This document shows, in pieces, positions 11,001 through 60,149 of a stretch of DNA of 64,000 nt (its first letter is position 1; the number at the start of each line of letters is the position of its first letter). Location: contig CM067372.1 of NCBI GenBank assembly GCA_034401795.1, positions 17,263,924 to 17,327,923 of the forward strand, read 5' to 3'. The stretch comes from Chaetoderma sp. LZ-2023a. Lineage: Eukaryota; Mollusca; Caudofoveata; Chaetodermatida; Chaetodermatidae. The notes under the pieces were generated by a model that saw only the letters and a program-made list of their open reading frames with translations, was not told the origin of the DNA and searched no databases. A program made the translations under genes and the position numbers.

Positions 11001-14000
11001 GCTATGACCGGATTCACACTTTTTGGTGCTTATCATGCAGAGACAAGATTCTAACCCACGTCCTTTGGCATATCATTACCACCCGATCACGGGTACATGT
11101 CCCAGGGTGTGTGTATGTGGCTTATAGGTCCTAGCGAATTGACGAACCAGCATTGATTATGCGTACAGCATGTGGCAAGGCCCGTCCAGCTTGAATGATG
11201 TCACAAAAAAACCCACAAGTTTATCCAGCCATGTGTCAATTTTATGTCATTACATATAATTATATGATAGAGTGAACATGAGTTAACATGTGGAAGTGAA
11301 TGATACATGTATTTAGGAATCTGACTTTTGTTGACTTCAAGATTAATTGGGACGATGTGTCTTTATTTGACAGGAAGGTTGATGAATCACAGCTAGGAAC
11401 CCCATCATCTAAGCCTCTCTTTGGTGACAACAATGATGACAGTCATAATGGTGATATTGTCAGAGGACGAAAAGAAAAACTGACACAGTCTACATTTGAG
11501 AAAAGACAAGCAAAGGTGATTAATTCATTAACTAGTGCCAATAATTTAGCTATTTGTAGTAGCTTGTCCTCAACTTAGTGTGTATGTGAGTCTTTTTGCG
11601 ACAGCTGATGAATGCCTCAAATATCATTATGGTCCTGAGTCTGACATCTAACTTACCACCATCGAAATCTCTGTAAATAATATTTATTTCATGTCCCCTG
11701 TACTACTCATGGTGTCAGATTTTCATTTCAGTTGCGCATATATGCAGCTTAGAGAGGACCATAATTAAACTGACAGCAAAAATGTTTTCACCAAAACGTA
11801 TAAGATGCGAGGCAGCCACGACTTCCATTTCAATTAAATTTAGACTGGGATTCCTGGCTTGTAAGGCTTTAGACAAACATTTAAAGGAAATAATTGTTAC
11901 AAAAATTATTTGTTTTTACCAAAACTTATAGGATGTGAGGGAGCCACAACTTCAATTAATTTCAGACAGGGATTCCTGGCTTGTAAGACTTTAGACAGGA
12001 ACATTTAAAAGGAAATAATTGTTGCAAATTATGACATCACAGAGATTATGACATCACTGAGAGAGGAGATCACTGAGAGATAATGATGTCACTGAAAGAT
12101 TTTGACACCACTGAAATATTATGATATTACTGAAAGATTATGACATCACATGGATTATGACATCACTGAGAGATTATGACATCACTGAAAGATTACATCA
12201 CTGAAAGATTATGACATCACTGAAAGATTATGACATCACTGAGAGATTATGACATCACTGAGAGATTATGACATCACAGATATTATGACATCACTGAGAT
12301 TGTGTGACATCACTGACAGATTATAACATCACTGAGAGATTGTAACATCACAGACAGATTATGACATCACTGCAATTTTGTGAACACAGAGAGATTGTGA
12401 CATCTCTGAGGATTCAGACATCACAGAGATTGTGACATCACAGAGATTGTGACATCACTGAGACATTGTGACAACCACAGACAGATTATGATATCACTGA
12501 TAGATTGTGACATTCACTCATTAATTCCATCATATACAGAATATCTCTGGCATCACAAAGACTTTTCTATCAGATCACTAACATTTAAAGTGTTCCTGTC
12601 ATTGTTTTGTGTGTTTATTGGTTCTTTACAGTTGAAAGAGCAAATTACTCAAATGGAAGATGCCAGTTTACTAGACAAACCCTGGCAGCTGATGGGCGAG
12701 GCAGCGGCAGCATCCAGACCAGAGAATAGCTTACTGGAGGAGCATCTACAGTTTGATCATACTGCACGACTTCGTGAGTGAACGATTTATTTTTGTCTCA
12801 CAAAACATCTTGATTTAGCTATTATTCTATTGTTATCTCACTACATGTCTTGATTGAACAATTATTTCTTGATTGAACAATTATTCCATTGTTATTTCAC
12901 TAGACTTCTTGATTGAACAATTATTCCATTGTTATCTAACTAGACTTCTTGATTGACCAATTATTCTATTGTTATCTAACTAGACTTCTTGATTGAACAA
13001 TTATTCCATTGTTATCTCGCTAGACTTCTTGATTGAACAATTATTATATTGTTATTTCACTAGACTTCTTCATTGAACAATTATTCCATTGTTATCTAAC
13101 TAGACTTCTTGATTGACCAATTATTCTATTGTTATCTAACTAGACTTCTTGATTGAACAATTATTCTATTATCTCACTAGACTTCTTGATTGAACAATTA
13201 TTCCATTGTTATCTCGCTAGACTTCTTGATTGAACAATTATTATATTGTTATTTCACTAGACTTCTTGATTGAACAATTATTATATTGTTATTTCACTAG
13301 ACTTCTTGATTGAGCAATTATTCCATTGTTATCTCACTAGGCTTCTTGATTGAGCAATTATTCTATTGTTATTTCACTAGACTTCTTGATTGAACAATTA
13401 CTCTATTGTTATTTCATTAGACTTCTTGATTGAGCAATTATTCTATTGTTATTTCACTAGACTTCTTGATTGAACAATTATTCTATTGTTATCTCACTAG
13501 ACTTCTTGATTGAGCAATTATTATATTGTTATTTCACTAGACTTCTTGATTGAACAATTACTCTATTGTTATTTCACTAGACTTCTTGATTGAGCAATTA
13601 TTTTATTGTTATTTCACTAGACTTCTTGATTGAAGAGTTGTTCTATTGTTATCTCAGTCTTCTTGATTGAACAATTATTCCATTGTTATCTCACTAGACT
13701 TCTTGATTGAACAATTATTCTATCGTTATCTCACTAGACATGTTGATTGAACAATTATTCTATTGTTATCTGAGGGCATAGTGATTTAAATTTATTAAAA
13801 CAAAGCCGATCGGTCAATTTGCCCAGTGGCCATCTTGGATTTTGGCTAATTTTTAGAAATGTGTTTAAAAATCTCTGAAGCCGCTTGTGAGATCGATTCA
13901 AAATTTATGAAATATCATCTAGGGCAAGAGCTGAATCTAGTTTGTACAAGGGAAGTTGTTTGGCCAAACAGTTGGGTGGCCATCTTGGATGACCTAGTTT

Positions 14001-17000
14001 TCGATAAATTGACTTCTCCAGAGCCACTCAACTGATCGGGCCGAAATTTGGGAGATATCATTAGGGACCAAAGGCCGTTCAAGCTTGTTCCAGGGAAGTT
14101 GATAGGTAAAAAAAACATGGCCACCGTGAGCCAATCAAAATGTAGTGTGTTTGGAGGCCGTATTGGATTTTTTTATTTGAAGGATATATGTTTTTGGTTA
14201 TTCTGATTTCAAATTTGCCGTCTTCGAAACTGTCGGATAGATAGATGGTTTGGCATCATCTTGGATCTTTTTCCTGTCAAAAGTTCCCAGACTAAAGCAA
14301 TAGGAAATTTTTATGGTCTGGCAGAAAGCATCCTTATAGCACAGAGATCCAAGTTTGTTCAAACGAAGCCAATCAGCCAATTTGGGCAGCGACCATCTTA
14401 AACTTTGGCCGATTTTTAGAAATATTAAAAAAATCTCATGAGTCATGAAACGTCATTTAGGGCAAAAGCTGAAACAAGTTTGTTGAAGGGAACTTGATTG
14501 GCCAATGCTTTGGTGGCCATCTTGCATGACCTAGTTTTTGTGAGTTCAACTGCATAGACGTCCAAGCTTGTTCAAAGGAGGCTGATCAGCCAGTTTGGCC
14601 GGCAGACATCTTGTATTTTGACTGATTCTTTGAAATGTCTTTAAAATATTCTCGGAAACCGCCTGGGGATATATTCTACACTCATGAAACATCATCAAAG
14701 TCAACATCTGAACCAAGTTTGTGTAAGGGAATTTGGTTGGCCAAATGTTTCAGCGGCCATCTTTGATGACCTAGTTTTAGAGAAAATGATTTCTTCAGAA
14801 CTGCTGAATGGATCGGGTTGAAATTTTGGGAATCTGATTAGGCATTAAGGGTCATTAAGCTTTGTTCAAAGGAAGCCAATCGGCCAATTTGGCCGGTGGA
14901 CATCTTGGACGTTGGCTGATTTTTAGCAATGTGTTTAAAACTCGGAAACCGCTCTGGTGATCGATTGAAAACTCCTGAAACATCATCTAGGGAAACAGCT
15001 GAGCAAAGTTTGTTCAACGGAACTTGATTGGCCAAATTCTTCAGCGGCCATATTGGATGACCATACCTAGTTTTCGCGAAAATTACTTCTGAACCAAATA
15101 GATCGGTCTGAAACTTGGGAAATATGGTTAGGCATTAAAGGTGCATATTCACACCCGAATACTTGGAAATAAAATTGTTCAAATTGTATACATTTAGAGG
15201 CTTAGATTGTGTGACTGGACGTAATGAAACGAACTACATGTAAATCCCAACATATGGTTTCATTCCATATAAATTAATATAATTTTTTAAAGTTGTGAAA
15301 TCGAAATAGAGGCATGAGTCCTTATTTCAAAGTCACAACTTAAAAAATATTATACTAATTTATGCGGAATGAACTCGTCATATGCTAAGATTTATTTCGT
15401 TTTGTTGCATCTAGGCCCACAGTTTAAGCCTCTGAAAGTATACAATTTAAACAATTTTATTTTCATTAATTTTGCTGTAAATAAGCACATTTAATGGCCA
15501 TTAAACTTTGTTCAATGGATGTTAATACATTAAAATGTAGTGTGTTTGGTGGCCATATTGGATTTTTTAGTTGATGGGTTTTAAAGCTGACATTGGTTTT
15601 AAATAGGTTTTTGCTTAGTTCAAATGTGCCACTCTTGAAACTCAGACATACCGAATTGGTGACTTTCTTGAACTTTTTTACTGGCAAAAGCGCCTATAGT
15701 AAAGCAATGGGAAAGTGAAAATATCGCCACGAGAATCACTGGACTGATTATAACCAAATTTTGTAGAACATCTTTTTGTTCCTGTTGTGGTTCTCGCCAA
15801 ACCTTAGTGTTCTACATAAAGGTGATGACCTAGTTGAAATGCCTATGCTCCACGTGTTCGATACAGGCCGCTTGTTATTATAATTTTTTTATTCTACAGC
15901 TCCTGTTGTGACTGAGGAAACTACTAAAACTCTGGAGGAGATTATACAACAGCGTATCAAAGACAAGGTCTGTATGAATCTGCTAACAGTAGGTATAACA
16001 GACTACTCTAGTGTTATTCTGGTCTATCTGATGATCCTGACCACTGTAGTGTTATTCTGCTCTATCTGATGATCTTGGTACTGTAGTGTTATTCTGGTCT
16101 ATCTGATGATCCTGACCACTGTATTGTTATTCTGCTCTATCTGATGATCCTGGTACTGTAGTGTTATTCTGGTCTATCTGATGATCCTGACCACTGTAGT
16201 GTTATTCTGCTCTATCTGATGATCTTGGTACTGTAGTGTTATTCTGGTCTATCTGATGATCCTGACCACTGTATTGTTATTCTGCTCTATCTGATGATCC
16301 TGGTACTGTAGTGTTATTCTGGTCTATCTGGTGATCCTGACCACTGTAGTGTTATTCTGGTCTATCCGATGATCCTGGTACTGTAGTGTTATTCTGGTCT
16401 ATCTGGTGATCCTGGTACTGTAGTGTTATTCTGGTCTATCTGGTGATCCTGGTACTGTAGTGTTATTCTGGTCTATCTGGTGATCCTGGTACTGTAGTGT
16501 TATTCTGGTCTATCCGATGATCTTGGTACTGTAGTGTTATTCTGGTCTATCTGATGATCCTGACCACTGTATTGTTATTCTGCTCTATCTGATGATCCTG
16601 GTACTGTAGTGTTATTCTGGTCTATCTGGTGATCCTGACCACTGTAGTGTTATTCTGGTCTATCCGATGATCCTGGTACTGTAGTGTTATTCTGGTCTAT
16701 CTGGTGATCCTGGTACTGTAGTGTTATTCTGGTCTATCTGGTGATCCTGGTACTGTAGTGTTATTCTGGTCTATCTGGTGATCCTGGTACTGTAGTGTTA
16801 TTCTGGTCTATCCGATGATCTTGGTACTGTAGTGTTATTCTGGTCTATCTGATGATCCTGACCACTGTATTGTTATTCTGCTCTATCTGATGATCCTGGT
16901 ACTGTAGTGTTATTCTGGTCTATCTGGTGATCCTGACCACTGTAGTGTTATTCTGGTCTATCCGATGATCCCTGGTACTGTAGTGTTATTCTGGTCTATC

Positions 17001-20000
17001 TGGTGATCCTGGTACTGTAGTGTTATTCTGGTCTATCTGATGATCTTGGTACTGTAGTGTTATTCTGGTCTATCTGATGATCCTGACCACTGTATTGTTA
17101 TTCTGCTCTATCTGATGATCCTGGTACTGTAGTGTTATTCTGGTCTATCTGGTGATCCTGGTACTGTAGTGTTATTCTGGTCTATCCGATGATCCTGGTA
17201 CTGTAGTGTTATTCTGGTCTATCTGGTGATCCTGGTACTGTAGTGTTATTCTGGTCTATCTGGTGATCCTGGTACTGTAGTGTTATTCTGGTCTATCCGA
17301 TGATCCTGGTACTGTAGTGTTATTCTGGTCTATCTGGTGATCCTGGTACTGTAGTGTTAGTCTGGTCTATCTGATGATCATTGTACTGTAGTGTTATTCT
17401 GGTCTATCTGGTGATCCTGGTACTGTAGTGTTATTCTGGTCTATATGATGATCCTGGTACTGTAGTGTTATTCTGGTCTATCTGATGATCCTGATACTGT
17501 AGTGTTATTCTGGTCTATCTGATGATCCTGGTACTGTAGTGTTATTCTGGTCTATCTGATGATCCTGACCACTGTAGTGTTATTCTGGTCTATCTGATGA
17601 TCTTGATACTGTAGTGTTATTCTGGTCTATCTGGTGATCCTGGTACTGTAGTGTTATTCTGGTCTATCTGATGATCCTTGTACTGTAGTGTTATTCTGGT
17701 CTATCTGATGATCCTGGTACTCTAGTGTTATTCTGGTCTATCTGATGATCCTGACCACTGTAGTGTTATTCTGGTCTATCTGATGATCCTGGTACTGTAG
17801 TGTTATTCTGGTCTATCTGATGATCCTGGTACTGTAGTGTTATTCTGGTCTATCTGATGATCCTGGTACTCTAGTGTTATTCTGGTCTATCGGATGATCC
17901 TGACCACTGTAGTGTTATTCTGGTCTATCTGATGATCCTGGTACTGTAGTGTTATTCGGGTCTATCTGATGATCCTGGTACTGTAGTGTTATTCTGGTCT
18001 ATCTGATAATCCTGACCACTGTAGTGTTATTCTGGTCTATCTGATGATCCTGGTACTGTAGTGTTATTCTGGTCTATCTGATGATCATTGTACTGTAGTG
18101 TTATTCTGGTCTATCTGGTGATCTTGATACTGTAGTGGTATTCTGGTCTATCTGATGATCCTGACCACTGTAGTGTTATTCTGGTCTATGTGATGATCCT
18201 GGTACTGTAGTGTTATTCTGGTCTATCTGATGATCCTGGTACTGTAGTGTTATTCTGGTCTATCTGATGATCATTGTACTGTAGTGTTATTCTGGTCTAT
18301 CTGGTGATCTTGATACTGTAGTATTATTCTGGTCTATCTGATGATCCTGACCACTGTAGTGTTATTCTGGTCTATCTGATGATCCTGACCACTGTAGTGT
18401 TATTCTGGTCTATCTGGTGATCCTGGTACTGTAGTGTTATTCTGGTCTATCTGGTGATCCTGGTACTGTAGTGTTATTCTGGTCTATCTGATGATCCTGG
18501 TACTGTAGTGTTATTCTGGTCTATCTGATGGTCCTGGTACTGTAGTGTTATTCTGGTCTATCTGATGATCCTGGTACTGTAGTGTTATTCTGGTCTATCT
18601 GATGGTCCTGGTACTGTAGTGTTATTCTGGTCTATCTGATGATCATGGTACTGTAGTGTTATTAGCTCACCTGGCCAGAATGGCCAAGTGAGCTTATGCC
18701 ATGGCGACCGTCCGGCGTCTGTCTGGCGTCCGTCCGTCAACTTTTTCCTTTAAGCAACTTCTCAATAACCACTGGGCTGATTTCAATTAGATTTGGCAGG
18801 AAGTATCCTTAGGGCATAGGGATCCAAGTTTGTTCAAACAGAGCCGATCGGCCGATTTGGCCGGTGGTCATCTTGGATTTTGGCCGATTTTAGGAAATGG
18901 CTTTAAAAATCTTCTTCTCCGAAACCGCTTGTTGGATTGATTCAAAACTCACGAAATATCATATAGGGCAAGAGCTGAACCAAGTTTGTTCAAAGGAACT
19001 TGATTGGCCAAATGGTTCTGCGGCCATCTTGGATGACCTAGTTTTCGTGAAAACAACTTATTCTGCAGAACCGCTAAACGGATCGGGCTGAAATTTTGGG
19101 GATATGATTATGGTCTAAGGGCCATTAAAGTTTGTTCATGGGAAGTTGATAGGTAAAAAACATGGCCGCCGTGGACCGATCAAATTTTAGTGTGTTTGAC
19201 TGCCATATTCAATTTTTTTATTTGATGGATTTTGAAGCCGAAATTGGTTTTCTTAACTCCGCTTACTTGTCAGTCAGCTGTCGTATAGCGATGACCCCAT
19301 CCGTCTTCTGTATGTCCATTCATCCATCTGTCTGTCCATCGGCGGCTCATTTTGTTATTTCTTGATGGATTGACACCAAACTTGGTCACAATGTTAATGA
19401 CGGCATCTAATATCTGTGTTGTGAAAATGAAACGGATAGGATGCCAAATGCCAGAGTTATCACTCCTTAAATATTTGCAGTCTCACTTAGGGCAAATAAT
19501 GGTTTGTTCCCACCGTCCATTGATTTATCACCATGTCAGATTTTATTGCCAAACTAGATATTAAATTCCAATTAACAGATTAACCTTTCCAATACTGGCG
19601 AAATATTTAAGATATGTATTATGTGCTCTGACATCTATGCTCTTAAAAATATTTGAAATGTATTTGATTGAAAGTTGTTGCTGCCTTAGGCAGCAATGAA
19701 AGTTGTTGCTGCCTAAGGCAGCAATGACTCGGTCAAATTATTTTCTAAATCAACTCCAACCCACCCTACCCCTGCCGCTAACTCGGTGATTCAGCCAGAT
19801 GTGCATGTGTTAAATGGATTGTGTGGTGGTGGGGAATAACCTGCTATAAAGACTACCTACCTGCCTTTAGAGACCATTTTCTTCAAATTGTATTTAAACC
19901 TCTAGTAACCGTCTGACTGAGTTTTTGCAGACGACATATTCCAAAGGTTATATCTCTGAACCTGATAAATACTTTGAAAACAATTGGACTGAAAGTTGTT

Positions 20001-23000
20001 GGTGGCTAAGCCGCCAACAACTTTCAGTCGAATTGTTTTCAAAATATTCAACAAGTCAAGAGCTTTTGAAAATTGAAATTATTGGCTGCACTGGCTTGCA
20101 GCAGTGAGACAGTTAAGAAACCAGCTGTAGTTAGCACTGATATCATCTATTTTCACTTAAACATTGTTCAAAATCACTAATGCAAAAAAAACAGTCCAGA
20201 GATTGTTGTCAATATCTCGAAAACTAAATCATGTGACTGAAAGTCATTGGAAGTGACACTGATGGATGTAAAACTTAAGTAAGATTAGTTGAAATGCCAA
20301 TGTTCCAGGTTCTGGTCTATCTGATGATCCTGGGAGAGGGATGGAGAGGCAGATGGACAGAAATAGACAACAGATCCTTAGGGTGCGTGTGGACTTGTTC
20401 AATGCGATTGAACAAATCCCTTACATTTTCTGAATCTATTTTCAACAATCAAATATTTGTGCGTTAATGTTTTTATTTGTTCTATGCCTGGGATAATGTG
20501 TTAATGTTTCTCTGTATGTTCTATGCCTGGGATAATGTGTTAATGTTTCTCTGTGTTCTAGGCCTGGGATAATGTGTTAATGTTTCTGTCTGTGTGTTCT
20601 AGGCCTGGGATAATGTGTTAATGTTTCTCTGTGTTCTAGGCCTGGGATAATGTGTTAATATTTCTCTGTGTTCTAGGCCTGGGATAATGTGTTAATGTTT
20701 CTCTGTGTTCTAGGCCTGGGATAATGTGTTAATGTTTCTGTCTGTGTGTTCTAGGCCTGGGATAATGTGTTAATGTTTCTGTCTGTGTGTTCTAGGCCTG
20801 GGATAATGGGTTCATGTTTCTGTCTGTGTGTTCTAGGCCTGGGATAATGTGTTAATGTTTCTCTCTGTGTGTTCTAGGCCTGGGATAATGTGTTAATGTT
20901 TCTGTCTGTGTGTTCTAGGCCTGGGATAATGTGTTAATGTTTCTCTGTGTTCTAGGCTTGGGATAATGTGTTAATGGTTTTTTCTGTGTGTTCTAGGCCT
21001 GGGATAATGTGTTAATGTTTATCTCTGTGTGTTCTAGGCCTGGGATAATGTGTTAATGTTTCTCTGTGTTCTAGGCCTGGGATAATGTGTTAATGTTTCT
21101 CTTTGTGTGTTCTAGGCCTGGGATAATGTGTTAATGTTTCTGTCTGTGTGTTCTAGGCCTGGGATAATGTGTTAATGTTTCTGTCTGTGTGTTCTAGGCC
21201 TGGGATAATGTGTTAATGTTTCTGTCTGTGTGTTCTAGGCCTGAGATAATGTGTTAATGTTTCTGTCTGTGTGTTCTAGGCCTGGGATAATGTGTTAATG
21301 TTTCTGTCTGTGTGTTCTAGGCCTGAGATAATGTGTTAATGTTTCTGTCTGTGTGTTCTAGACATGGGATAGTGTGTTAATGTTTCTGTCTGTGTGTTCT
21401 AGGCCTGAGATAATGTGTTAATGTTTCTCTGTGTTCTAGGCCTGGGATAATGTGTTAATGTTTCTGTCTGTGTGTTCTAGGCCTGAGATAATGTGTTAAT
21501 GTTTCTGTCTGTGTGTTCTAGGCCTGGGATAATGTGTTAATGTTTCTGTCTGTGTGTTCTAGGCCTGAGATAATGTGTTAATATTTCTGTGTGTTTTCTA
21601 GGCATGTAATGATGTCTTAATATTTCTGTATGTTCTGGGCCATGGGATAATGTGTTAATATTTCTGTGTGCTTTCTTTAAGTGGGATAATGTGTTAATGT
21701 TTCTCTGTGTGTTGTAGGTGTGGGATGATGTGTTACTGTTTCTCTCTGTATGTTCTAGGCGTGGGATGATGTGGAACGTAAGATCAAGCCCACCGAGGAT
21801 CCTCTGGAGTACAAGAAGCGCATTACTTTAGACCAGGAGAAAAGTAAGCTGAGTCTCGGACAGATCTATGAGCAGGAATATCTGAAGCAGCAACAAGCGG
21901 TTAGTACCCTTGCACGATTATGCAGTTTTTATAATCGTGATCATTTTAGATAGATAATCGCAATCATTCAGTTAATCGTAGATGTATTAGTGGGGTATAG
22001 GTTGGAGGCATAAAACTTTCAAGACCGCTAGTATTGGCAATATCTGAAAAGATCCACCAACTACTTCGAACAAGAATTGCCAACATAGCGTTAAAAGAAC
22101 GAAAAAGTGCATCGCTGACCATACCACTAAAATCGCATCCACCACTAAAATCGCATCCACTCGTGTTCAGAAATCAGTTGATAGGCTATTATAAACAATT
22201 AGAGTACTATTTCTGACCACAATATCGATAAATCCATTTTACAATATAAGCCACCAAGACAAAATGTTCCAAGGCGGAATCAAATTAGTGACAAAAATTG
22301 CTTGAACACCCGAGAATTAAAATGTGGTTAATCGCTTCCTATGTTGGTGAGACAAAATAAACCTATTTTGCGATTGAGGCGTATCAATTGACATGTTCTC
22401 GCAAGATCTCATACGCTAACGGGAATTTGAGACATTGTTAGATCACATTGATCCTATAACTCTTCCTTGTCTGAACTGACTCCTATCAACACTCAATAAG
22501 TTGAGTTGGATACCCATTATTCTGATCTGATTAAAAATATGATACTCGGTTACCATCACGCAATGTGAATATATAAGCAATTTCGAGTTCCACGTCCAGC
22601 ATATTTATATCTCGGAGTACTCACTCTAAATATTGTTAGTGATTCTTAATTTGATTTAACCTTAGTGGATTCATAATATCATGTGATTTATATTTTATTG
22701 CGATGACATTTTGTCAAATTTTGGATTGATTTTGATGTAATAAACAATCTTCATTAAGGTATACACAATAATCAGGCACTCTGAATTAATTATTTCATTG
22801 TCGTGATGATGTTTTGTGGTATACATTAAACATAGTCGTAAGGCAGCAAGAATTTGTACTGGGAAATTGTGTCCAATTTTCATGTTATGATCTATCAGTT
22901 GGATTTGAACTTTTTCTTGAAATATCCCTAATATAATCCCACCCACTTTCTCAGCGATGTTGGTAAAAGGAAATTGAACACCTCTTGTCCTAATATATTC

Positions 23001-26000
23001 CTAGGCTACTAATAGGCGATATACACGACTATGTTTTGAAAAGTAACTATCTTGATGATTAAAAATCTTCGATTATTCGATTTTTATTTTTGTGATCATC
23101 CACAATCATATTTTTAAGAATAATCACTTAATTGAATAATCGAATAATTGTACAATCCTAGCGGTTAGTGAGTCATGTGTTCTTTAGATGGTGCAGTGTG
23201 TGTGTGCGTGGGGAAGGGGGTTGGGCTTCAGTATGGAGTGCAATGTGGCCACAATGCTGTTGTGGACAGTGGATGGGTGCGTGATTGCTTGTTTTGGTTG
23301 TTTGCAGGAGGAAGATACTGAAGTGAAGAAAGATGATCCGGAACATGAACAGATTAAGAAGTTGATGAAATACCTGTTCACCCGCCTTGACGCTCTGTCA
23401 AACTTTCATTACACACCAAAACCAGTGAGTAATGTTTGCACTACAGTTATGTGTCTGGCTCTTGTGTCTGGAAACTTGTCTGTAGTTTTAGTGATGGTCA
23501 AAGAGGAGCATCATCTTGTGCTTTTCCTAACCTGTCCATCCAGTCATCTGGGTTAGCTATCCAGTTGTTGTATAATCACAGATTGATTTACTGGCACTCA
23601 TATTAAACAGATAGTCACCTCGTTATTGTAGAATATTGTCTTGTATTTAGCTATCATTTTAATATAGCTTGCCTTCAGGCATTTGTTTCATTCACTGTAT
23701 GCATGGCACATGATGCATGTATTGATATGAAGGCATTTGTTTCATTCACTGTATGCATGGCACATGATGCATGTATTGATATGAAGGCGTTTGTTTCATT
23801 CACTGTATGCATGGCACATGATGCATGTATTGACATGAAGGTAGTAAGCATGCCATCCACATATTGTTCTTATGTTGAGAAGTATTATCCAGCCACCTGA
23901 AACTAATATTCATAGATCATAGATTGTATAAAACACTCAAGTATCATGCCTTTTTGGTGTCAAAGTTATGATCGTCGCATAATGCATCATTTATACTGCA
24001 CTTCTTAGTATCCCACTTGTATCTATAGATACAGTTACACTGTCGATTGCTGGAGACACTGTGTTCTCCTCAGGCATTTATGAGAAACCCGGCCAGAATA
24101 TTATAATCACCTCCGTCCATCCATTTGTCTGGCTATCTCCTTTGAAACAATTTCGCTAGTGGCAGAATCCCAAATTTAGCAGATTTGAATCAAATTTGTT
24201 ATGTCAATTACCCACCTGATTGTGGATAGTGTAGTGATGTTTATGGTCTGTGCTCTGGAATGGTGAGGGTGTGTGGTGATGAGGTAGGTGTGCAAACCTT
24301 CAAAGTTGGTGAAAGTGTGAGGATTTATGATGTCACACCATAGACTGCATGCTCTAGTTCTTTATAATACTACAAACACAGGATGGAAAGGGTGTACCAT
24401 TGCTGTTGTTCATAACTTTACATGTTACCATGGTTTCTGTTATACAGGCGATTCCAGAGCTGCAAATTGTATCTAACCAGCCATCCATCAGAATGGAAGA
24501 AGTGGCACCTGTTTCCATGACTGATGTTCAAAGACTGGCTCCTGAGGAACTTGAGGTAGAGTAATCAATACACCCTGCAAACATTCAGAATAAATATGGC
24601 AAATATTTAAAATGGCTGGTTAGATATTTTAAAATCAATATAACTGGAAATGTGTCGTAAGCAAGGCTTTCCATCAATATTGCTTCACAATAATCACTTA
24701 TGTAGCTCTGAACTTGGTACACAAATTAGTTTCTGATCCTAAGCTCAAGTTACATGTGCACACTATCACACCATGTTACCATTTCCCTTTGTACCTTCAA
24801 ACATACGTTAAGTTATCCTACATGTAGATGTGCAGTGTGCATTAATAGAGGTTGCATCCAATAAGCAGAGGGTGTTAACCATTTCACTGATGAATTCCTG
24901 ATATCTCATTTACAAGGCAAGCAAAGATGCAGGAAACACAGAGAATGTTCTAAAAGTAATTTGATTGGAAGCATAAGGAAGCAATGGCTTCCAGTCAAAT
25001 TAATTTCAAAATATTCAACAGAATAAGTTTTATATCGTAAAGAATTGATTTAAATTTTGTCATTGAAAGGGTTAAAGGAATTGTGCTGTATTCCTGATGA
25101 TAACTCAAGTTCTAATCTGCCAAGTGTGGCCGGCATGTTCCCTTTAGTGGTCTATTCTGCCAAGCGTGGCCGGCATGTTCCCTTTAGTGGTCTATTCTTC
25201 CAAGCGTGGCCGACATGTTCCCTTTAGTGGACTATTCTGCCAAGCGTGGCTGACATGTTCCCTTTAGTGGTCTATTCTGCCAAGCGTGGCCAGTATGTTC
25301 CCTTTAGTGGTCTATTCTGCCAACCATGGCCGGCATGTTCCCTTTGGCGGTCTATTCTGCCAAGCGTGGCCAACATGTTCCCTTTAGTGGTCTATTCTGC
25401 CAACCATGGCCGGCATGTTCCCTTTAGCGGTCTATTCTGCCAAGCGTGGCCGGCATGTTCCCTTTAGTGGTCTATTCTGCCAAGCGTGGCCGACATGTTC
25501 CCTTTAGTGGTCTATTCTGCCAAGTGTGGCCGGCATGTTCCCTTTAGTGGTCTATTCTGCCAAGCGTGGCCAGTATGTTCCCTTTAGTGGTCGATTCTGC
25601 CAAGCGTGGCTGGCATGTTTCCTTTAGTGGTCTATTCTGCCAAGCGTGGCCGGCATGTTCCCTTTAGTGGTCTATCTATTTAGGGCTCAAAAGGTCAAAG
25701 GACACGTTCATGGTGTCCCAATTAAGGAAAAGTGATTGGTGTAAAGCGTCACAATCTGCAATTGCCATTCTTATTGCATTTGATCTGCAGCTGATCAATT
25801 TAGTTTGCCATTTGTTCTATAGGACAAACAGAAGGGAGAATTGAAAGGCACGACAGAAAAGAGTGTAACTGATCGTAAGCGTGAGCGTCGTGAAAAGAAA
25901 GCTTCAAAGCGAATGCGTGAGAAGGAGAAGCGTAAGAAGCAGAAATTGATTGATAAGCTACATCCTGGTCTCGGGAACAAGTACAGTAAGGAGAAAGCGA

Positions 26001-26632
26001 TGAAGGAGCTGGAGAAGCAGAGTCATGGTGATCAGAACCTGACAGTCATTAAGGTATTCACTAGTAAACAACATCTAATGTTCTATCAATCTGTCTGACA
26101 GGAGCAAGCCACCAGACAATAATTTCAATGAGCAATAACTCTGGACCTGCTGAATATTTTGAAAAAGATTTGACTGAATGTTGGTGGCTTAGCCACCAAC
26201 AACTTTCAGTCATTTTTTCCCCAAAATATTTTGTATATCCAGAGTTAAACTCTATGGAACATGTAGTCTGCAGAAATTCAGCAGACACAGTTAATTATGT
26301 GTTTTTATATGCACACGCACGCACCCACCCACGCACGCACACACGCACGGATGCATGGACACACACTCACAGATTGCACACATGCATGCATGCATGGACA
26401 CACACACACATTGGTCGAAACAAAGCCACTTTATAGACCTGATTATTATTATATTTTTTTTCTTGTCTTCTAGGATTCATCCAAAAAGTCTAGTACGTCC
26501 TCGCTCACATCATCCAAAGCATTCTTCACACAACTTCAACAGGAAGTGACATCACAGATCAGTAGAAAGAAATCAGAAGCTGGTTCAGGCGTGAAGAAAA
26601 ACCAGAAAACATCAAAGAATTTGAAATTGTAA
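1050..26632 (+). CDS. MPHOSPH10: U3 small nucleolar ribonucleoprotein MPP10 (ten exons, 5' incomplete)
   Basis: MPP10 is a nucleolar scaffold of the small-subunit processome. It works with IMP3 and IMP4 on the U3 snoRNA and is needed for early 18S rRNA processing. Ten exons join as 1050-2031, 9552-9673, 11374-11515, 12632-12773, 15900-15967, 21759-21899, 23308-23424, 24448-24555, 25823-26053 and 26474-26632. All have GT/AG borders and matching phases, and give 736 residues plus stop. Conserved family blocks occur in order: [120 protein letters not shown], then a basic KKRE-type tail. Human MPP10, from memory, is 681 residues. The longer length here comes mainly from the acidic region of the first exon. 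The start codon exon lies outside the window. Introns make up over 90% of the locus and hold most of the tandem arrays described below. Confidence 0.96.
2044..3030. repeat. 21-bp minisatellite, ~47 units, intron 1
   Basis: The unit is close to TAGCTATGCCCCGCCCATTTC, with variants in the CCCCGCC part (TGTGTCGCC, TGTCCCACC). It starts 13 bp after the splice donor at 2031. Because 21 is divisible by three, several frames stay open for up to ~250 codons, but these are not genes. The unit matches a segment of a dispersed element seen at 3335-3400 and 10560-10600, and a hairpin element follows at 3119. Confidence 0.95.
3119..3198. repeat. Hairpin element copy 1
   Basis: The arms CTGTTGAATATTTTGAAAC... 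and the inverted ...GTTTCAAAATACTCAACAG enclose a short centre containing GGCAGCAACAGCACCC. It follows directly after the 21-bp array and the linker GAATCCTGAATTCCC, an order seen in other copies of the family. Confidence 0.8.
3335..3515. repeat. Dispersed element with a hairpin half-arm (copy 2)
   Basis: Contains TAGCTATGCCCCGCTCATC, two AAGCTCCACCCA motifs and a linker, then the single arm GCTGTTGAATATGTTGAAAC and GGTGCTGTTGCTGCC. The inverted arm is missing. It shows the ancestral order (pre-array segment, linker, hairpin) that explains the 21-bp array. Confidence 0.7.
3557..3924. mobile_element. hAT-type MITE (368 bp)
   Basis: The ends are inverted copies, CAGGGATCGAAAT at the left and the complement of CAGGGTTAGAAAT at the right. 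Related GGGCAAC motifs (CCGGGGCAACCT / GGGTTGCCCTGC) lie inside each end. CAGGG...GAAAT ends are typical of hAT non-autonomous elements. A clean 8-bp target duplication is not seen (ACCTG is shared by both flanks). A run of 17 G lies inside at 3832-3848. Confidence 0.55.
3955..4045. repeat. Dispersed repeat shared with 10840-10950
   Basis: The segment ATCATATGATTGATGGAT with nearby CATTGATTATGAC(A)TCA recurs, rearranged, at 10840-10950. It lies downstream of a hairpin-family copy in both places, so it may belong to a larger element. The rest of 4046-4529 shows nothing recognisable. Confidence 0.4.
4530..6620. repeat. 57-bp minisatellite, ~37 units, intron 1
   Basis: The unit contains GTGCGCACAGTACC, TTGATGTGTAGAGCTGTCTC and CTGGGTATGTCCTAGCATAG. 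Some units carry CCCAGATGTGTGGCC in place of the second motif. CpG positions vary as CG, TG and CA. Since 57 is a multiple of three, frames stay open on both strands (longest 318 codons, 19-residue repeat [19 protein letters not shown]). These are rejected as genes because no start, splice or conserved protein context exists. Confidence 0.96.
6621..7639. other. Intron 1 sequence with one stray 57-bp unit
   Basis: At 6906-6960 a single diverged unit of the 57-bp array (ATAGAAGTGCCCACAGTACC) stands about 290 bp outside the array. The rest is AT-rich intronic sequence in which I recognise nothing. Confidence 0.5.
7640..8990. repeat. Interspersed repeat with ~165-bp tandem units
   Basis: Units around 8046, 8228, 8391 and 8540 share 'ACC.(G/C)TTGGC.GATTT.AACCTAATTTGGCTGGA' and 'TTGTATACAGAATTTT'. 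They are flanked on both sides by related sequence (GGGATGTAACCTGCATAACA at 7755, GGGATGTGATCTGCATAACA at 8892). This suggests one repeat inserted into, or internally duplicated within, another. No coding capacity. Confidence 0.55.
9012..9410. repeat. CACCCCGCC-type repeat, short copy
   Basis: Starts with ACACCCCGCCAAAATAATTG and then GGTGGGGTATTATGTGATGG, a short hairpin. It continues with units holding GATAACTC.GCTACC, TTGAAACTTCATAGG and GGCGGCCATCTTGAAAATTG. It is the same family as 53466-54885, with about three units. It ends some 140 bp before the exon at 9552. Confidence 0.65.
9552..9673 (+). CDS. MPHOSPH10: MPHOSPH10 exon
   Basis: The acceptor is a T-rich tract ending TTTCAG. It opens in phase 0 with [18 protein letters not shown], matching the family's NLKY.DFFDP block, and continues to [13 protein letters not shown]. 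It ends inside an Arg codon at CG|GTATGA. A 52-bp array starts about 35 bp after the donor. Confidence 0.92.
9708..10190. repeat. 52-bp minisatellite, ~9 units, intron 2
   Basis: The unit includes GATGGCAGGATGTAGAGCGT, AGAAAGGTGTGCTG and GGTAATATCTGGCACAAT. It starts ~35 bp after the donor CG|GTATGATATG. The GGTAATAT part of each unit resembles that donor. Open frames on the reverse strand are repeat artefacts. Confidence 0.95.
10278..10462. repeat. (GT)n-rich simple repeat
   Basis: Runs of GTGTGTGTG broken by CATG and CGTG steps. The Cys/Val-rich open frame over it is a simple-repeat artefact. Confidence 0.9.
10560..10756. repeat. Dispersed element ending in hairpin copy 3
   Basis: Holds TAGCCATGCCCCACTAAGC and CTCCACCCACAC, a linker with TGAACTCCCTGA, and then arms CTGTTGAATATTTAGAAAC / GTTTCAAAATATTCAACAG (10670-10756). 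The paired centre is GGGCGCTGTTATGG...ACAGCGCCC. This is the most complete view of the family's order. Confidence 0.75.
10757..11373. other. Intron 2 remainder
   Basis: Contains the dispersed segment shared with 3955-4045 (10840-10950). The rest shows nothing recognisable until the acceptor TTTGACAG at 11366-11373. The open frame running into the next exon is ordinary read-through of intron sequence. Confidence 0.4.
11374..11515 (+). CDS. MPHOSPH10: MPHOSPH10 exon
   Basis: The acceptor TTTGACAG precedes the single base that completes the split Arg codon. The exon encodes [18 protein letters not shown] and ends with TFEKRQAK, equivalent to SSFEKRQEK of vertebrate MPP10. The donor is AAG|GTGATT, phase 0. 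Confidence 0.92.
11780..12028. repeat. ~125-bp tandem duplication, intron 3
   Basis: Two adjacent copies share ACCAAAAC.TATA.GATG, CAGGGATTCCTGGCTTGTAA (GGGATTCCTGGCTTGTAAG in both) and GGAAATAATTGTT. They have diverged by roughly 15%. No coding capacity. Confidence 0.75.
12040..12535. repeat. ~19-bp minisatellite (ATGACATCAC type), intron 3
   Basis: About 24 irregular units close to GAGAGATTATGACATCACT, decaying towards the acceptor at 12631. It shares the ATGACATCAC core with the unrelated satellite at 34509-40705. Confidence 0.92.
12632..12773 (+). CDS. MPHOSPH10: MPHOSPH10 exon
   Basis: The acceptor is TTCTTTACAG. The exon encodes [20 protein letters not shown] and then a conserved [15 protein letters not shown] block. 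It ends in phase 1 at CTTC|GTGAGT. The first unit of the downstream 40-bp array overlaps this donor. Confidence 0.94.
12761..13770. repeat. 40-bp minisatellite, ~24 units, overlapping a splice donor
   Basis: The unit is TAGACTTCTTGATTGAAC plus AATTATTCTATTGTTATC and TCAC. The first, most diverged unit reads CGACTTCGTGAGTGAAC and ends in CTCAC. It contains the last bases of the exon ending at 12773 and its GTGAGT donor. In later units GTGAGT has become TTGATT, so the decoys are mostly dead. Confidence 0.9.
13785..15858. repeat. CCATCTTGGAT repeat family, ~290-bp units, intron 4
   Basis: Repeated blocks read GCCGATCGGCCAATTTGGCC-like, then GGCCATCTTGGATTTTGGC, AAACCGCTTG, 'ATCATCTAGGGCAAGAGCTGAA', and GGCCATCTTGGATGACCTAG with TTTTCG. 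At least three full units occur. The tail TAGTTGAAATGCCTATGCTC is shared with the copy at 18664-20308. The head is missing here. A foldback element (15166-15464) is inserted in it. Confidence 0.65.
15166..15464. mobile_element. Foldback element (~299-bp palindrome)
   Basis: The whole segment is close to its own complement: the left end GAAATAAAATTGTTCAAATT pairs with the right end (complement GAAAATAAAATTGTTTAAAT), and the inner arms AATATAATTTTTTAAAGTTG pair with CAACTTAAAAAATATTATAC. The centre is near 15315. It looks like a MITE-type foldback. No target duplication was identified. Confidence 0.65.
15900..15967 (+). CDS. MPHOSPH10: MPHOSPH10 exon
   Basis: A short exon after the acceptor TATTCTACAG. 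It completes a split Pro codon and encodes [19 protein letters not shown] followed by KDK, matching the family's APVITEETT..LEDIIKQRI block. The donor is AAG|GTCTGT in phase 0, a weaker match to consensus than its neighbours. Confidence 0.93.
15985..18663. repeat. 37-bp minisatellite, ~72 units, intron 5
   Basis: The unit is close to CTGGTCTATCTGATGATC, CTGGTACTGTAGTGTTATT. Variants (GACCACTGTATTGTTATTCT; TTGGTACTG) form higher-order blocks. It starts right after the donor AAG|GTCTGTATGAATC, to which the unit is similar. It is interrupted at 18663 by an interspersed element, and a remnant unit reappears at 20309-20335. Confidence 0.96.
19650..19750. repeat. Hairpin element copy 4
   Basis: GTATTTGATTGAAAGTTGTTG then a perfect inner palindrome TTGCTGCCTTAGGCAGCAA, a second GAAAGTTGTTGCTGCC, and the inverted outer arm GGTCAAATTATTTTC. 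The centre appears duplicated. Confidence 0.6.
19962..20053. repeat. Hairpin element copy 5
   Basis: The arms CTGATAAATACTTTGAAAAC / GTTTTCAAAATATTCAACA enclose a long stem GAAAGTTGTTGGTGGC / GCCGCCAACAACTTTC. The flanks (AGAGCTTTTGAAAATTGAAA) resemble those of copy 7. Confidence 0.8.
20309..20462. repeat. Remnant of the 37-bp array and spacer
   Basis: TTCTGGTCTATCTGATGATC is one intact piece of the array that ends at 18663. It shows the array once ran through this point. The remaining ~120 bp are unrecognised. Confidence 0.75.
20463..21758 (+). repeat. Decoy 3' splice-site array, ~32 units of 37-41 bp
   Basis: Each unit reads GCCTGGGATAATGTG, TTAATGTTTCTCTGTGTG, TTCTAG, that is a pyrimidine-rich tract, an AG acceptor and the first ~15 bases of the next exon (GCGTGGGATGATGTG). 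The true exon start at 21759 is simply the last unit. The penultimate unit (around 21717-21735) reads GTGTGGGATGATGTG, closer to the exon than upstream units. Translated from a decoy acceptor in the correct phase, a unit gives [12 protein letters not shown] and then a stop. Confidence 0.95.
21759..21899 (+). CDS. MPHOSPH10: MPHOSPH10 exon preceded by a decoy-acceptor array
   Basis: Encodes [20 protein letters not shown] through [11 protein letters not shown], phase 0 at both ends, strongly matching the vertebrate AWDDVVRK...EIYEQEYIK block. The acceptor GTTCTAG|GCGTGG is the last member of a tandem array whose units repeat the acceptor and the first exon bases. The donor GCG|GTTAGT lies inside the target-site duplication of a hAT-like element. 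Confidence 0.94.
21897..21904 (+). promoter_or_regulatory. Splice donor inside a target-site duplication (left copy)
   Basis: GCGGTTAG is the left 8-bp duplication of the hAT-like element at 21905-23160. It is also the exon end and donor GCG|GTTAG. The same eight bases stand at 23161-23168. Confidence 0.8.
21905..23160. mobile_element. hAT-like element (1256 bp) filling intron 6
   Basis: The ends are TACCCTTGCACGATTAT (left) and, as complement, TAGGATTGTACAATTAT (right). They match the hAT pattern TAG.G.TG.AC.ATTAT and are rich in ATAATCG motifs. An exact 8-bp duplication GCGGTTAG flanks it. No transposase is seen (longest open frame about 83 codons, unrecognised), so it is non-autonomous. 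Without it the intron would be about 144 bp (23164-23307). Confidence 0.85.
23161..23307 (+). other. Ancestral intron 6 with the second donor copy
   Basis: GCG|GTTAGTGAGT at 23161 is the original donor context, now separated from its exon by the transposon. The rest runs to the acceptor GTTTGCAG at 23307. Confidence 0.7.
23308..23424 (+). CDS. MPHOSPH10: MPHOSPH10 exon
   Basis: The acceptor is GTTTGCAG. The exon encodes [20 protein letters not shown] and [13 protein letters not shown], both matching MPP10. The donor is CCA|GTGAGT, phase 0. Confidence 0.94.
23685..23845. repeat. 54-bp tandem repeat, three units, intron 7
   Basis: The unit holds AGGCATTTGTTTCATTCACT, GTATGCATGGCACATGATGC and ATGTATTGATATGA. 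Copies are almost identical. 54 is a multiple of three, so frames stay open on both strands ([18 protein letters not shown]), an artefact. Confidence 0.93.
23846..24447. other. Intron 7 remainder with an interspersed-repeat piece
   Basis: 24090-24215 (CACCTCCGTCCATCCATTTG, then TTTGAAACAATTTCGC) resembles the start of the long 'Fermi-like' CCGTCCG interspersed repeats. The rest is not recognised. Confidence 0.35.
24448..24555 (+). CDS. MPHOSPH10: MPHOSPH10 exon
   Basis: The acceptor is TGTTATACAG. It encodes 36 residues: [20 protein letters not shown] and then [16 protein letters not shown], matching the family's PEIKVVSNLPAITMEEVAPV block. The donor is GAG|GTAGAG, phase 0. Confidence 0.94.
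24943..25022. repeat. Hairpin element copy 6
   Basis: Left arm TCTAAAAGTAATTTGATTGG, short centre GAAGCATAAGGAAGCAATGG, right arm CCAGTCAAATTAATTTC and AAAATATTCAACAG. Confidence 0.7.
25110..25675. repeat. 40-bp minisatellite, ~14 units, intron 8
   Basis: The unit is TGCCAAGCGTGGCCGGCATG followed by TTCCCTTTAGTGGTCTATTC. Copies are about 95% alike, so this is a young array. CpG variants (GCGTGG / CCATGG, GGCCGGC / GGCCAAC) are present. Confidence 0.95.
25823..26053 (+). CDS. MPHOSPH10: MPHOSPH10 exon (basic region)
   Basis: The acceptor is TTCTATAG. It encodes 77 residues including [20 protein letters not shown] and further Lys/Arg clusters, as in the C-terminal basic part of MPP10 (probably nucleolar targeting and RNA contact; inference from composition). 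The donor is AAG|GTATTC, phase 0. Confidence 0.94.
26137..26248. repeat. Hairpin element copy 7
   Basis: Extended arms: AACTCTGGAC...CTGAATATTTTGA pair with CAAAATATTTTG...TCCAGAGTT. The centre stem is TGTTGGTGGCT / AGCCACCAACA. It lies in the 420-bp intron 9. Confidence 0.75.
26310..26415. repeat. CACACGCA / ATGCATGC simple repeat
   Basis: Short runs of CACGCACG, CACACACA and a GCATGCATGCATG tract. Confidence 0.8.
26474..26632 (+). CDS. MPHOSPH10: MPHOSPH10 last exon
   Basis: The acceptor is TTGTCTTCTAG. It encodes 52 residues including [20 protein letters not shown] and ends in TSKNLKL followed by TAA at 26630-26632. Human MPP10 ends in the closely similar VHKLKL. The 3' UTR beyond it is split by a transposon starting about 70 bp downstream. 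Confidence 0.94.
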   Translation, partial: DSSKKSSTSSLTSSKAFFTQLQQEVTSQISRKKSEAGSGVKKNQKTSKNLKL

Positions 26633-28330: not shown

Positions 28331-28590
28331 TCGCGTGTCTATGCACTCTATTTATGCCGATTTTTAGCTCTCGTTTCATTGTCGAGGGTGTTTGTAGCGA
28401 TCAGCAGTTATTTCCTGGTCGTTTTAACGTTTGTTAACGTCTAGGTTGTGTTTTTTTTAAATTTCACTCAAAAAAGTTTCAAATATTTCCTGCCTGAGGC
28501 TTGATTATCATTAATTGAGAGAAAGTTAATGTTTTCCTAGTAATTCAATTTTACTATCAGGTCTATTGTGCGTATTGGTCGTCATCAGTC

Positions 28591-30513
28591 ATGTGCAGCG
28601 TTTTAATTCTTCTTTGTGTTCGCAGAAAGCCAAGAACCAGGACACTATGTCAGAAGTGCAACAGGTTCATGAAGCGCAAATACTCTGGTCATCACTGTGT
28701 AGCTTGCGCGAAGTGTAAAGTGGGAAGCCCATGTGATGTGTGCGCCAAGTGGTCATCAGAGATGGTGGCAGAATTTGATCGGGATCGATGTGCGCGCTTG
28801 GAGAGGATCGCGAGGGACAAGGCGGCCAAGCTGGATCAGGCGTCGTTGAGAGGACTGGAAGGTCGTCTGAATACTTGTATGGATTCAGCACTGGGCGTAT
28901 GGGCGGCCCAGTTCAAGGCAATGTTTGACTCATTGCAGTCCACGGTCCCGTCGATGCAGGCTGGTGCAGGGCAACCTTTAGGTGGTCCGGCTAGTTCTGC
29001 CCCTTCTCTGTCCTTGGCTCAAGAGCCGACGGTGGAGGAGGAAGATCTTCTCATGGAAGATTCCGGCATGCCGGATATTTCGATGACAGCAATGCCCAGT
29101 ACTTCCCAGGTGTCTCCCTCGGGATTTGTACGGGTTTGCCAGGCGGATGGTGATGTCGACGTTCCGTCGGGCATTTTCCATCCAGGGTTTGTGCAACCCG
29201 TGGTGTCGGTGGAGCCGTGTTTTGCGGTTCCTACCGGCATCCCGGCGGCGTTAGGCGTGGCTCCTATCGGATTGCCGTCGCCTGCCGTAGGCAAAGCGGT
29301 CGTGGTCCCGCCTCCCGTGTTGGAGCCGATGGACTGCGGGGAATCCGTGTCTGGCGATTCGCTGGACACCGGTGCCGCTGGTGGTCGGGCTATGGATGCG
29401 CCCTATGTTGGTAGAGGTGCGTCCCGTAGCTCACAGCATGGATCGTCGGTGGCCTTCTCATCCAAGGCAGAGAGGGAAGATGAGAACGGTAGTTCTTTAA
29501 TGGACGAATCCGTTTTCTGCACCGAAGCTGAATGGGTGCAGGTCCTTGGCTGGATGTCCGACCGTCTCGGGTTGGCATCTGAGCTTGGATCTCAGCGTGA
29601 TCCGGCTATGGAACGGATGTCAGAGCGAGCGGCTAGCGCTCTGTCAAGTGGCTCTTCTGCCATGCCGACACTCCCGTTGGACACGCAGACTTCCGACATG
29701 CTGGAAGTTGCGGCATACCGTCTGGTTCAGCCGGAGTATGCACTGCCCAAAGCCCCCAAGGGGGTGAGGAGTAGGGTCCATTTTCCGGAGCAGGCCTACC
29801 ATCAGTATGCCCGGGTTCCACGGCTTTCCGTCGGGGAGCGAGAGGCGCTGAACAGGCCGTTGGCTGGGAAGTCTAAGGGGCGTTCTCGTCCTTTGGTTTC
29901 CCAGACCAATAAAGATCCGGTTAATGAGCTTACGCTCATTGAGGATGCGGCGAGGGCAGCCATGGCTGCGCTCTCGCATGGATGTACCCTCCTGCAGGGA
30001 ATGCTTTCCTGCGCGGAGGAGGGTGGGCAGGTGCCAGAGGCTGTTCCCGGAGTTATTCGGGACACCATGCGCCTGTCTCAAGATTGCCTGGCCAGGGTGA
30101 TCACCAGGACATTGGCAGAGCGACGGAGAATGGTTCTTGATAGCGTAGAACCAGGACCAGAGATGAGGGCTGCGTTGTCGTCTGCGCCTTTCATCGGTCC
30201 AGGCTTGTTTGGCGGCTCGGCACGACAAGCTCTCTCCAAGGTCGCGTCAATGGTTGCAGAGCAGGAGGTAGTCGGGAAGTCGTGGAAGTCGACAAAGAGG
30301 ACACAGCCACAGCAGTCCTACAGGCAACATCGCCAGGAGCAGCAGAGACAGCGTCCAAGATCACCCTTCCGTCCTTCAGGTCGTGATGCCCATGAAGATG
30401 ACAGGAAGGATGGTGGTTCGGGCCGTGGCGGTTACCGTAAGGATAATCGTGGCGGCGGTTCCGGACCGTCATATTCGAAGAAGCCGCTGGGCGGCCGTGG
30501 GGGTCGGTCCTGA
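28591..30513 (+). CDS. DIRS gag-like protein (640 codons)
   Basis: A single open frame. It has a Cys/His cluster at residues ~19-53 (CQKC, HHCVACAKC, CDVC) as in the N-terminal part of DIRS gag proteins, a Pro/Ser-rich middle, a conserved block around ALNRPLAGKSKG, and a Gly/Arg-rich tail. It presumably coats the element RNA (inference from position and composition). The first in-frame ATG is taken as start. An acceptor-like TGTTCGCAG just after it leaves open a spliced leader. Confidence 0.75.
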   Translation: MCSVLILLCVRRKPRTRTLCQKCNRFMKRKYSGHHCVACAKCKVGSPCDVCAKWSSEMVAEFDRDRCARLERIARDKAAKLDQASLRGLEGRLNTCMDSALGVWAAQFKAMFDSLQSTVPSMQAGAGQPLGGPASSAPSLSLAQEPTVEEEDLLMEDSGMPDISMTAMPSTSQVSPSGFVRVCQADGDVDVPSGIFHPGFVQPVVSVEPCFAVPTGIPAALGVAPIGLPSPAVGKAVVVPPPVLEPMDCGESVSGDSLDTGAAGGRAMDAPYVGRGASRSSQHGSSVAFSSKAEREDENGSSLMDESVFCTEAEWVQVLGWMSDRLGLASELGSQRDPAMERMSERAASALSSGSSAMPTLPLDTQTSDMLEVAAYRLVQPEYALPKAPKGVRSRVHFPEQAYHQYARVPRLSVGEREALNRPLAGKSKGRSRPLVSQTNKDPVNELTLIEDAARAAMAALSHGCTLLQGMLSCAEEGGQVPEAVPGVIRDTMRLSQDCLARVITRTLAERRRMVLDSVEPGPEMRAALSSAPFIGPGLFGGSARQALSKVASMVAEQEVVGKSWKSTKRTQPQQSYRQHRQEQQRQRPRSPFRPSGRDAHEDDRKDGGSGRGGYRKDNRGGGSGPSYSKKPLGGRGGRS

Positions 30514-30639
30514 CGGGTTTCCGGCGGGACCAGTTCCGGTGACGTCAGGAACGAAGGGAGTCGAGAATCTTCACCCAAGCGATTTAGCGTCTTCACGTGC
30601 AATCTTGACCGCCAGCTGTGTGCAGATTCCTTCCGTCGG

Positions 30640-32690: not shown

Positions 32691-33535
32691 ATTTTATCTG
32701 TCATTTATACGAAGTTGACAAACTTGTACCTTCAACCCTAGCAGCATATAAGTCTGCATTAGCTTCAGTCATTCCCAGTCTGGCCATTGAAGGAGTGGAG
32801 AATGACACCTTGAATTAAGTTATTAAAGGAATGAGCAATCTGCGACCTAGACAGCCAATTCCTATCCCAGCATGGAATCTATCTCTTGTTCTACAGGTTT
32901 TAGGGCATGCTCCCTTTGAACCAATTGGATCTATAGACATTAAACTGTTAACTATTAAATCAGTTTTCTTGGTTGCAGCAGCGTCGGCGAGAAAGAGAAG
33001 CGAAATACATGCGCTTTCTGCCGAACAAGACCGTTTTGTCGTCACGGGTGAAGGTTTAAGACTACTTCCACGTCTTTGTTTCCTGGCAAAGAATCAGTCA
33101 CTTAAATATCCAGGACAGCCGATCAATTTGCCAAGTTTAACTAGACATGACCCAAACTCTTCTGCTTGGTGTCCTGTCAGATGTCTGAAAATGTATAAGA
33201 AACGTACTGAGGAGTGGAGAGATGACCCGAAATCTCTGTGGTTATGTCTCAAAGCTCCTCATTTACGCGCCTCGAAAGATACTATTTCTCGTTGGATAGT
33301 TGGCGCTATTCAGATGTCGCACAAAATCGCTACAGGAAAGCAGATTGATCGTGCGAATGCCCATCAGGTCCGAGCACTAGCAGCATCATCGGCCCTTTAT
33401 ACGGGTGTCTCATTAGAGGAGTTGATGTCTGTAGCACAATGGCATGCCGAGTCATCATTCACTGATTTCTACCTTCGCGACATCCCCAGCGCACTTAATC
33501 CGGTAGCCGTCGCCAATTTATCGAATCTAAACTAA
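32540..33535 (+). pseudogene. DIRS tyrosine recombinase region
   Basis: N-terminal SAM-like part (TTKTYNYRINKFAEWCKG) followed by a catalytic part with Arg in ASARKRSEIHAL, the HQVRALAASSAL box and Tyr in SSFTDFYLRD. This is the usual order of the R-HxxR-Y family. It is the integration enzyme that replaces a DDE integrase in DIRS elements and explains the lack of target duplication. Region broken. Confidence 0.85.
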
Positions 33536-60117: not shown

Positions 60118-60149
60118 AGCATCAGTGTATTGATAACAACGAAATATTA

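Follow-up and report, generated by a model that had tools for sequence, protein, structure and literature searches.

Tandem copies of an intron–exon junction in MPHOSPH10: a probable mirage-type minisatellite, very probably in a mollusc

How does an intron come to contain more than thirty near copies of its own 3′ end, and how could the true exon start be recognized among them? The question is raised by a gene in the window analysed here (a stretch of 64,000 bases, part of a 178.5-Mb contig in a genome of 2.44 Gb). The gene had been named MPHOSPH10 in a preliminary description of this DNA, and the identification holds: the Pfam family Mpp10 matches with 455 bits, and ten modelled exons join in frame, giving one open frame with a terminal stop. 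The exons, all on the plus strand, are at 1050-2031, 9552-9673, 11374-11515, 12632-12773, 15900-15967, 21759-21899, 23308-23424, 24448-24555, 25823-26053 and 26474-26632. The first exon was not found among the ATG frames of the 4.5 kb immediately upstream of the window. The C-terminal part of the protein aligns with MPP10 of 7mq8, which we take to be the human protein, and in which the motif AWDDV is at residue 437.

The array in question is on the plus strand at 20463..21773 and has 33 units, each 37-41 bp long, the last of which is the true exon start, as defined by Tandem Repeats Finder, the unit table and alignment; its last 15 nt are coding. In the one assembly, Tandem Repeats Finder reports positions 20478-21773, with a period of 41 and 32.6 copies, and anchoring on the exon start gives 33 units, the exon included, with starts from 20486 to 21759 (a poor partial match at 20457, with 6/15 mismatches, was left out of the count). 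The array crosses the intron–exon boundary at 21758|21759 and its right end, according to Tandem Repeats Finder, is 15 nt past the true acceptor, inside the exon that begins at 21759. Thus, the true exon is the last array unit, as had been proposed. This exon (21759..21899, plus strand, 141 nt, phase 0) is the source of the exon-like part of the array, and the donor 15967|15968 of the upstream exon (15900..15967, plus strand) must join it at 21759.

From left to right, the units (plus strand) differ in the state of their acceptors. The two leftmost (starts 20486 and 20525; 20463..20539 in the unit table) have TAT instead of TAG and are dead decoys. The following 27 decoy acceptor units (starts 20562 to 21602; 20540..21616) each have a branch-like TTAAT or TTCAT, then a tract rich in pyrimidines, TAG and an exon-like stretch of 15 nt, according to the unit table, the alignment and the acceptor scores. 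Two degenerate units (21617..21693; unit table and acceptor scores) come next: that starting at 21640 has lost its AG and has GG instead, and in that starting at 21679 the AG is displaced by 3 nt (the first base after it being 21682) and its context is weaker. The decoy nearest the exon, TTGTAG|GTGTGGGATGATGTG (21694..21732), is 41 nt upstream of the true site and has 1/15 mismatch to the exon, and the true 3′ splice site region, defined by the gene model and unit alignment, is at 21733..21758. Over the whole array, the acceptor AG is kept at the aligned place in 28/32 non-exon units, always as YAG, so that in these 28 units an intronic splice signal and 15 exon-like nucleotides are found together. 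Not all of the about 32 tandem decoys described earlier are thus acceptors.

The likeness of the units to the exon start is close. Against the exon 15-mer GCGTGGGATGATGTG, one of the 32 other units has 1 mismatch, 21 have 2, eight have 3 and two have 4, so the two differences per unit originally described apply to 21/32. Elsewhere in the window, 125,190 positions on the two strands yielded just one match with 2 mismatches, which falls on the minus strand of another exon; nothing was found with 0, 1 or 3. The probability of ≤2 mismatches in 15 at one fixed register is 9e-7; the 32 units are not independent tests, because they are copies of one another. The last unit has 5 differences from the consensus over 42 aligned columns. 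The unit at 21718 had been called the most exon-like. With 1 mismatch it is so for the 15-mer, but alignment of complete units places others nearer the exon (differing columns: 4 for u12 and 7 for u33).

The match between exon and array does not end at the exon border: it runs upstream of the AG through the pyrimidine tract, in register with the AG. The alignment of unit to exon gave a junction score of 64, whereas none of 2000 random stretches exceeded 31, and so is better than random. The direction of copying can also be deduced. AWDDV is encoded at the exon start and recurs in 103/120 listed homologs (985 having been matched), which identifies the exon as the source of the array. A search of the 2.44-Gb genome for exact TTCTAGGCCTGGGATAATGTG gave 18 matches, every one inside the array. 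As the exon start is old coding sequence and the array core is found nowhere else in the genome, the array was copied from the junction rather than the reverse. The register, the tract and the conserved exon start together confirm, at the level of sequence, the proposal that the intron/exon junction of MPHOSPH10 gave rise to the array; the copied piece, as read from the alignment, is that from the putative branch region to exon base 15. Slippage or unequal exchange would have duplicated about 41 bp across this junction, comprising the branch-point region, the pyrimidine-rich tract, the AG and the first 15 exon bases; later rounds would have extended the intron side to 32 extra units, the true junction remaining the terminal unit.

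Other junctions of the same genome appear to have been struck by the same process. In MPHOSPH10 itself, an array at 12768..13774 (plus strand) has a 40-bp unit that spans the end of exon 12632..12773 (plus strand; boundary 12773|12774), the 3′ end and donor of which were copied according to the gene model and unit table. Here GACTTC|GTGAGTGAAC was copied as GACTTC|TTGATTGAAC, with a junction score of 42 (best of 2000 random stretches, 32). The unit table has TT at the donor in 24 rows (12804 to 13737), and a stricter count gives TT instead of GT in 23/23 copies; a weak match just past the array, at 13775 (6/16 mismatches, with GT), was not taken as a unit. One mutation from GT to TT before amplification would suffice to explain this. 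In CCT1 (locus L022, named from PDB matches), a 28-bp unit starts exactly at the donor: the exact word GTGAGGAGCA is present in 17 copies, the true donor being the first (Tandem Repeats Finder also gives 17.0 copies), and the copies are evenly spaced at 28 bp (once 26), without room for an altered copy. PSMA6 (locus L054) has an acceptor array of 80-bp units, each of which includes 49 nt of the exon. CCAG|CTGA is shared by the true site and five decoys, which have 1, 1, 1, 2 and 6 mismatches to the start of the true exon over these 49 nt, in a count that takes in copies with up to 10 differences.

Arrays of this kind have been described before as the mirages of amphioxus (PMC3087553, PMC3902484), so the view that an array of acceptor sites is new is not upheld. 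According to these papers, amphioxus mirages occur in Adh3 and in the globins BflGb6 and BflGb9, to which PMC3902484 adds PGBD5 and troponin C; they have been proposed as seeds of new introns (PMC3087553). The MPHOSPH10 acceptor array has in common with mirages, as there defined, that it spans the boundary, includes a splice signal with exonic bases, and has a unit of minisatellite size. The units given there are 10-72 bp for Adh3 and 150-160 bp for BflGb6, compared with 37-41 bp in the acceptor array; the 40, 28 and 80 bp of the MPHOSPH10 donor, CCT1 and PSMA6 arrays are also within the mirage range. Copy number is higher, with 33 units in MPHOSPH10 compared with the 3 and 6 described for BflGb6, and, unlike the amphioxus mirages as described, the array 12768-13774 has its donor disabled in every scored copy.

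The host also differs: mirages are known from a cephalochordate, whereas the animal here is very probably a mollusc. The eight best protein matches of MPHOSPH10 are all from molluscs. In a protein tree of 30 rows, the window sequence falls within an 18-row set that comprises molluscs plus four rows without a name (its support, 91/96, not reaching the star level), with a chiton adjoining it at weak support (85/63); when 22 rows were used for another tree, the window row was in none of the starred sets. Amphioxus as host was rejected, both by the molluscan matches and by an AU test against grouping with two Branchiostoma sequences (p 0.0099), which was done after the first tree had been viewed. 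Grouping with the chiton was not rejected (AU p 0.47).

Three other known systems invite comparison. Intron gain by tandem genomic duplication likewise involves duplicated splice signals (compare PMC4974935, PMC2891723), whereas the MPHOSPH10 array extends only 15 bases into the exon, is otherwise confined to an existing intron and is without a GTRAG donor. In NAGNAG and other tandem alternative acceptors, several acceptors likewise compete for one donor; in MPHOSPH10, by contrast, repeat expansion has produced 28 competing, complete site modules at a spacing of about 40 nt, each of which would lead to a premature stop. Intronic VNTRs with an effect on splicing, such as that of ABCA7, are likewise intronic tandem repeats linked to splicing, but description of the ABCA7 repeat at the level of title and abstract makes no mention of splice-junction copies. 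Mirages outside amphioxus were not found in titles and abstracts among the matches listed, which mostly leave aside the subscription literature.

Thus, we consider it probable that the array is a mirage-type minisatellite that arose by junction duplication and is neutral or mildly costly, the spliceosome mostly using the last acceptor by exon definition. To the known mirages the present data add two further genes, a companion array in which the donors are dead, a high copy number and, very probably, a new phylum. As such, mirages, which in the literature found are reported for amphioxus only, would now extend to what is very probably another phylum, to housekeeping genes and to higher copy numbers.

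An alternative is that arrays start preferentially at junctions (by way, for instance, of transcription or R-loops), in which case mirages would mark a junction-linked mutation process. Within MPHOSPH10, 5/10 intronic arrays are ≤40 nt from a junction, a number that random placement reaches in about 1.5e-4 of trials, and for four of these five the start given by Tandem Repeats Finder is 17-36 nt after a donor. The 40-nt limit was, however, picked after the data had been seen, the ten arrays omit four smaller ones found by Tandem Repeats Finder (3344, 19669, 22123 and 26314; <100 bp), and only two of the five near arrays have any likeness to their junction. The wider evidence comes from a survey of CCT and proteasome search loci (L013-L040 and L049-L068, i.e., 48/50 loci, with 96 ends), L011 and L012, which lack introns and look bacterial, having been excluded. 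Each end is that of a profile match, not a confirmed splice site, so that more distant junctions would be missed, and all 96 were kept, including single-exon or pseudogene-like matches (L013, L017), overlapping loci, and L015 and L016 with the same peptide. True junction duplications were found at 2/96 exon ends (the CCT1 donor and the PSMA6 acceptor); a third end above the score limit, that of L039, is a simple ACT repeat. Among control intron 60-mers, 26/286 exceeded the same limit (two more having been dropped for N), a control somewhat easier to pass because each was compared with a third of the other flanks and the ends with all of them. Fisher's p for ends against controls is 0.022 at 2/96, or 0.073 at 3/96 with the microsatellite edge counted, and with a laxer limit (any advantage) the counts are 6/96 and 39/286. 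Thus, junction arrays are not very rare and junctions are, if anything, spared. A preference for junctions, suggested by MPHOSPH10 alone and not borne out by the 96-end survey, is therefore unlikely.

If junction duplication is the origin, there remains the second part of the question, i.e., what the copies mean for splicing. Acceptors were scored with a matrix built from the nine other acceptors of the gene and with a second, generic matrix. On the former, 20/28 decoys equal or exceed the true site, which thus does not stand out among them; on the generic matrix, 2/28 do so. Among other AGs of the intron, 0/157 reach the median decoy score on either matrix. The motif yTnAy is present in 32/32 non-exon units, with its A 19-23 nt ahead of the exon-like start; the true unit alone is without it in the stretch scanned, TTACT replacing TTAAT, and the near-match GTTAC of that unit may well serve as its branch site. 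Judged by these features, the 28 intact decoys could pass for functional 3′ splice sites.

No GTRAG donor was found among the 199 GT dinucleotides of the array, so use of a decoy would lengthen the exon rather than create a new one, unless a weaker GT were used. No new intron bounded by duplicated splice sites is evident, the gene being in frame with the modelled introns and the array without GTRAG. Nor is there a recursive (zero-exon) site, an acceptor followed by GTRAGT, there being no GTRAG in the array; among units with AG, AG|GT occurs only at 21718 and continues as GTGTGG. The preliminary description had predicted that decoy use would add a short peptide and a stop. A premature stop does follow in 28/28 AG decoys (the shifted AG of unit 21679 being outside this count), and the peptide predicted was roughly right: the common predicted products are two peptide types with near variants, plus A-stop.

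The last acceptor would win because it alone is directly joined to the short exon body, with a donor 141 nt downstream. Exon definition is to be expected in this gene, since its exons are short (68-231 nt past the first modelled one) and its introns long (420-7520 nt). Exon definition could readily extend to the decoy 41 nt upstream and may thus, by itself, not exclude it. Rare use of decoys leads, in the predicted transcripts, to premature stops, and such messages would presumably be removed by nonsense-mediated decay (NMD).

The array could alternatively be a rheostat of poison acceptors, in which decoys are used at a real rate, their products are lost to NMD, and array length tunes the output of MPHOSPH10. 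This would be consistent with the retention of YAG in 28/32 units and of a branch-like motif in 32/32, with decoy scores like those of real acceptors and unmatched by other AGs of the intron, and with the premature stop that every AG decoy gives. Recent homogenization would, however, preserve the AGs without selection, and amphioxus mirages are reported (PMC3087553, PMC3902484) not to disturb regular splicing. Thus, we regard such a rheostat as unlikely. Its extension, that junction-copying minisatellites are common genome-wide and that long acceptor arrays act as copy-number-dependent poison acceptors, with array length a heritable dial, is more speculative still and appears quite improbable. 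If it were true, every extra unit would raise the loss of message to NMD and the level of a ribosome-assembly factor would be set by array length.

Multiplication of short repeat units by mis-assembly is very unlikely. There is a single assembly, and no second copy of the array locus was found in it by genome searches with the exact word and with the C-terminal part of MPHOSPH10 (four matches, all at the array locus); against an artefact are the ordered unit variants (37- and 41-bp forms, GAGAT variants, and degenerate units at both edges) and the independent junction arrays at other loci. An ordinary intronic minisatellite that is exon-like by chance, or was later co-opted as an exon start, would find some support in the density of minisatellites in the window (the arrays analysed occupy 21,597/64,000 bases), but is in effect refuted by the match in register with the AG and through the tract, with its score far above the random stretches, and by an exon start that is conserved coding sequence.

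With junction duplication as the favoured origin, these arrays offer two opportunities. In MPHOSPH10, one true acceptor is accompanied by 28 near-identical ones that differ chiefly in their distance to the real exon body and donor, which amounts to a natural test of context-based choice. Three arrays with live decoys can be set against one in which all scored donors are dead, which provides a way to measure selection on cryptic sites.

The window has many other repeats. Downstream of MPHOSPH10 donors, arrays at 2049-3026, 9700-10184 and 16004-18663 start at distances of 17, 26 and 36 nt and do not clearly resemble those donors. That at 16004-18663 was considered as a donor mirage, which was not established (p 0.07 gapped, p 0.46 ungapped), and the arrays starting at 2049, 9700, 12028 and 25111 had no likeness to the single junction tested for each. 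A 6.2-kb array at 34507-40704 has 352 copies of the 18-bp unit ATACACTATGACATCACA, and similar ATGACATCA units are present at 12028-12518 and in locus L038. A unit of 21-22 bp, built around TTTCTAGCTA or the reverse complement of this word, is found at 2049-3026 of the window, at 2088-2256 of L053 and at 1771-2127 of L064; as these loci are unrelated, some minisatellites are dispersed families rather than local copies. Retroelement-like open frames are present at 28519-33532, 46552-48261 and 59416-63999, of which two are related copies of DIRS-like appearance and one is Ty3-like; relatives of the frame 31353-32684 carry a reverse-transcriptase family.

The genome searches led to two further observations on the assembly. 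Contigs C18 (4.76 Mb) and C19 (0.54 Mb) have full-length, single-frame matches to the Cpn60 family, and C18 has two long open frames of the COX1 family, the only COX1 matches of the assembly, one of which, when searched, was closest to bacterial cytochrome o ubiquinol oxidases. These contigs are probably a bacterial chromosome, from a symbiont or a contaminant, within the assembly. The CCT-family matches of contigs C1286 and C1564 (L041-L048) are similarly spaced and look like two versions of one CCT gene region, the 151-bp arrays of the two contigs being of equal lengths, and L015 (C15, 132.70 Mb) and L016 (C1286) read an identical peptide. Both pairs are probable alternative haplotypes or duplicates.
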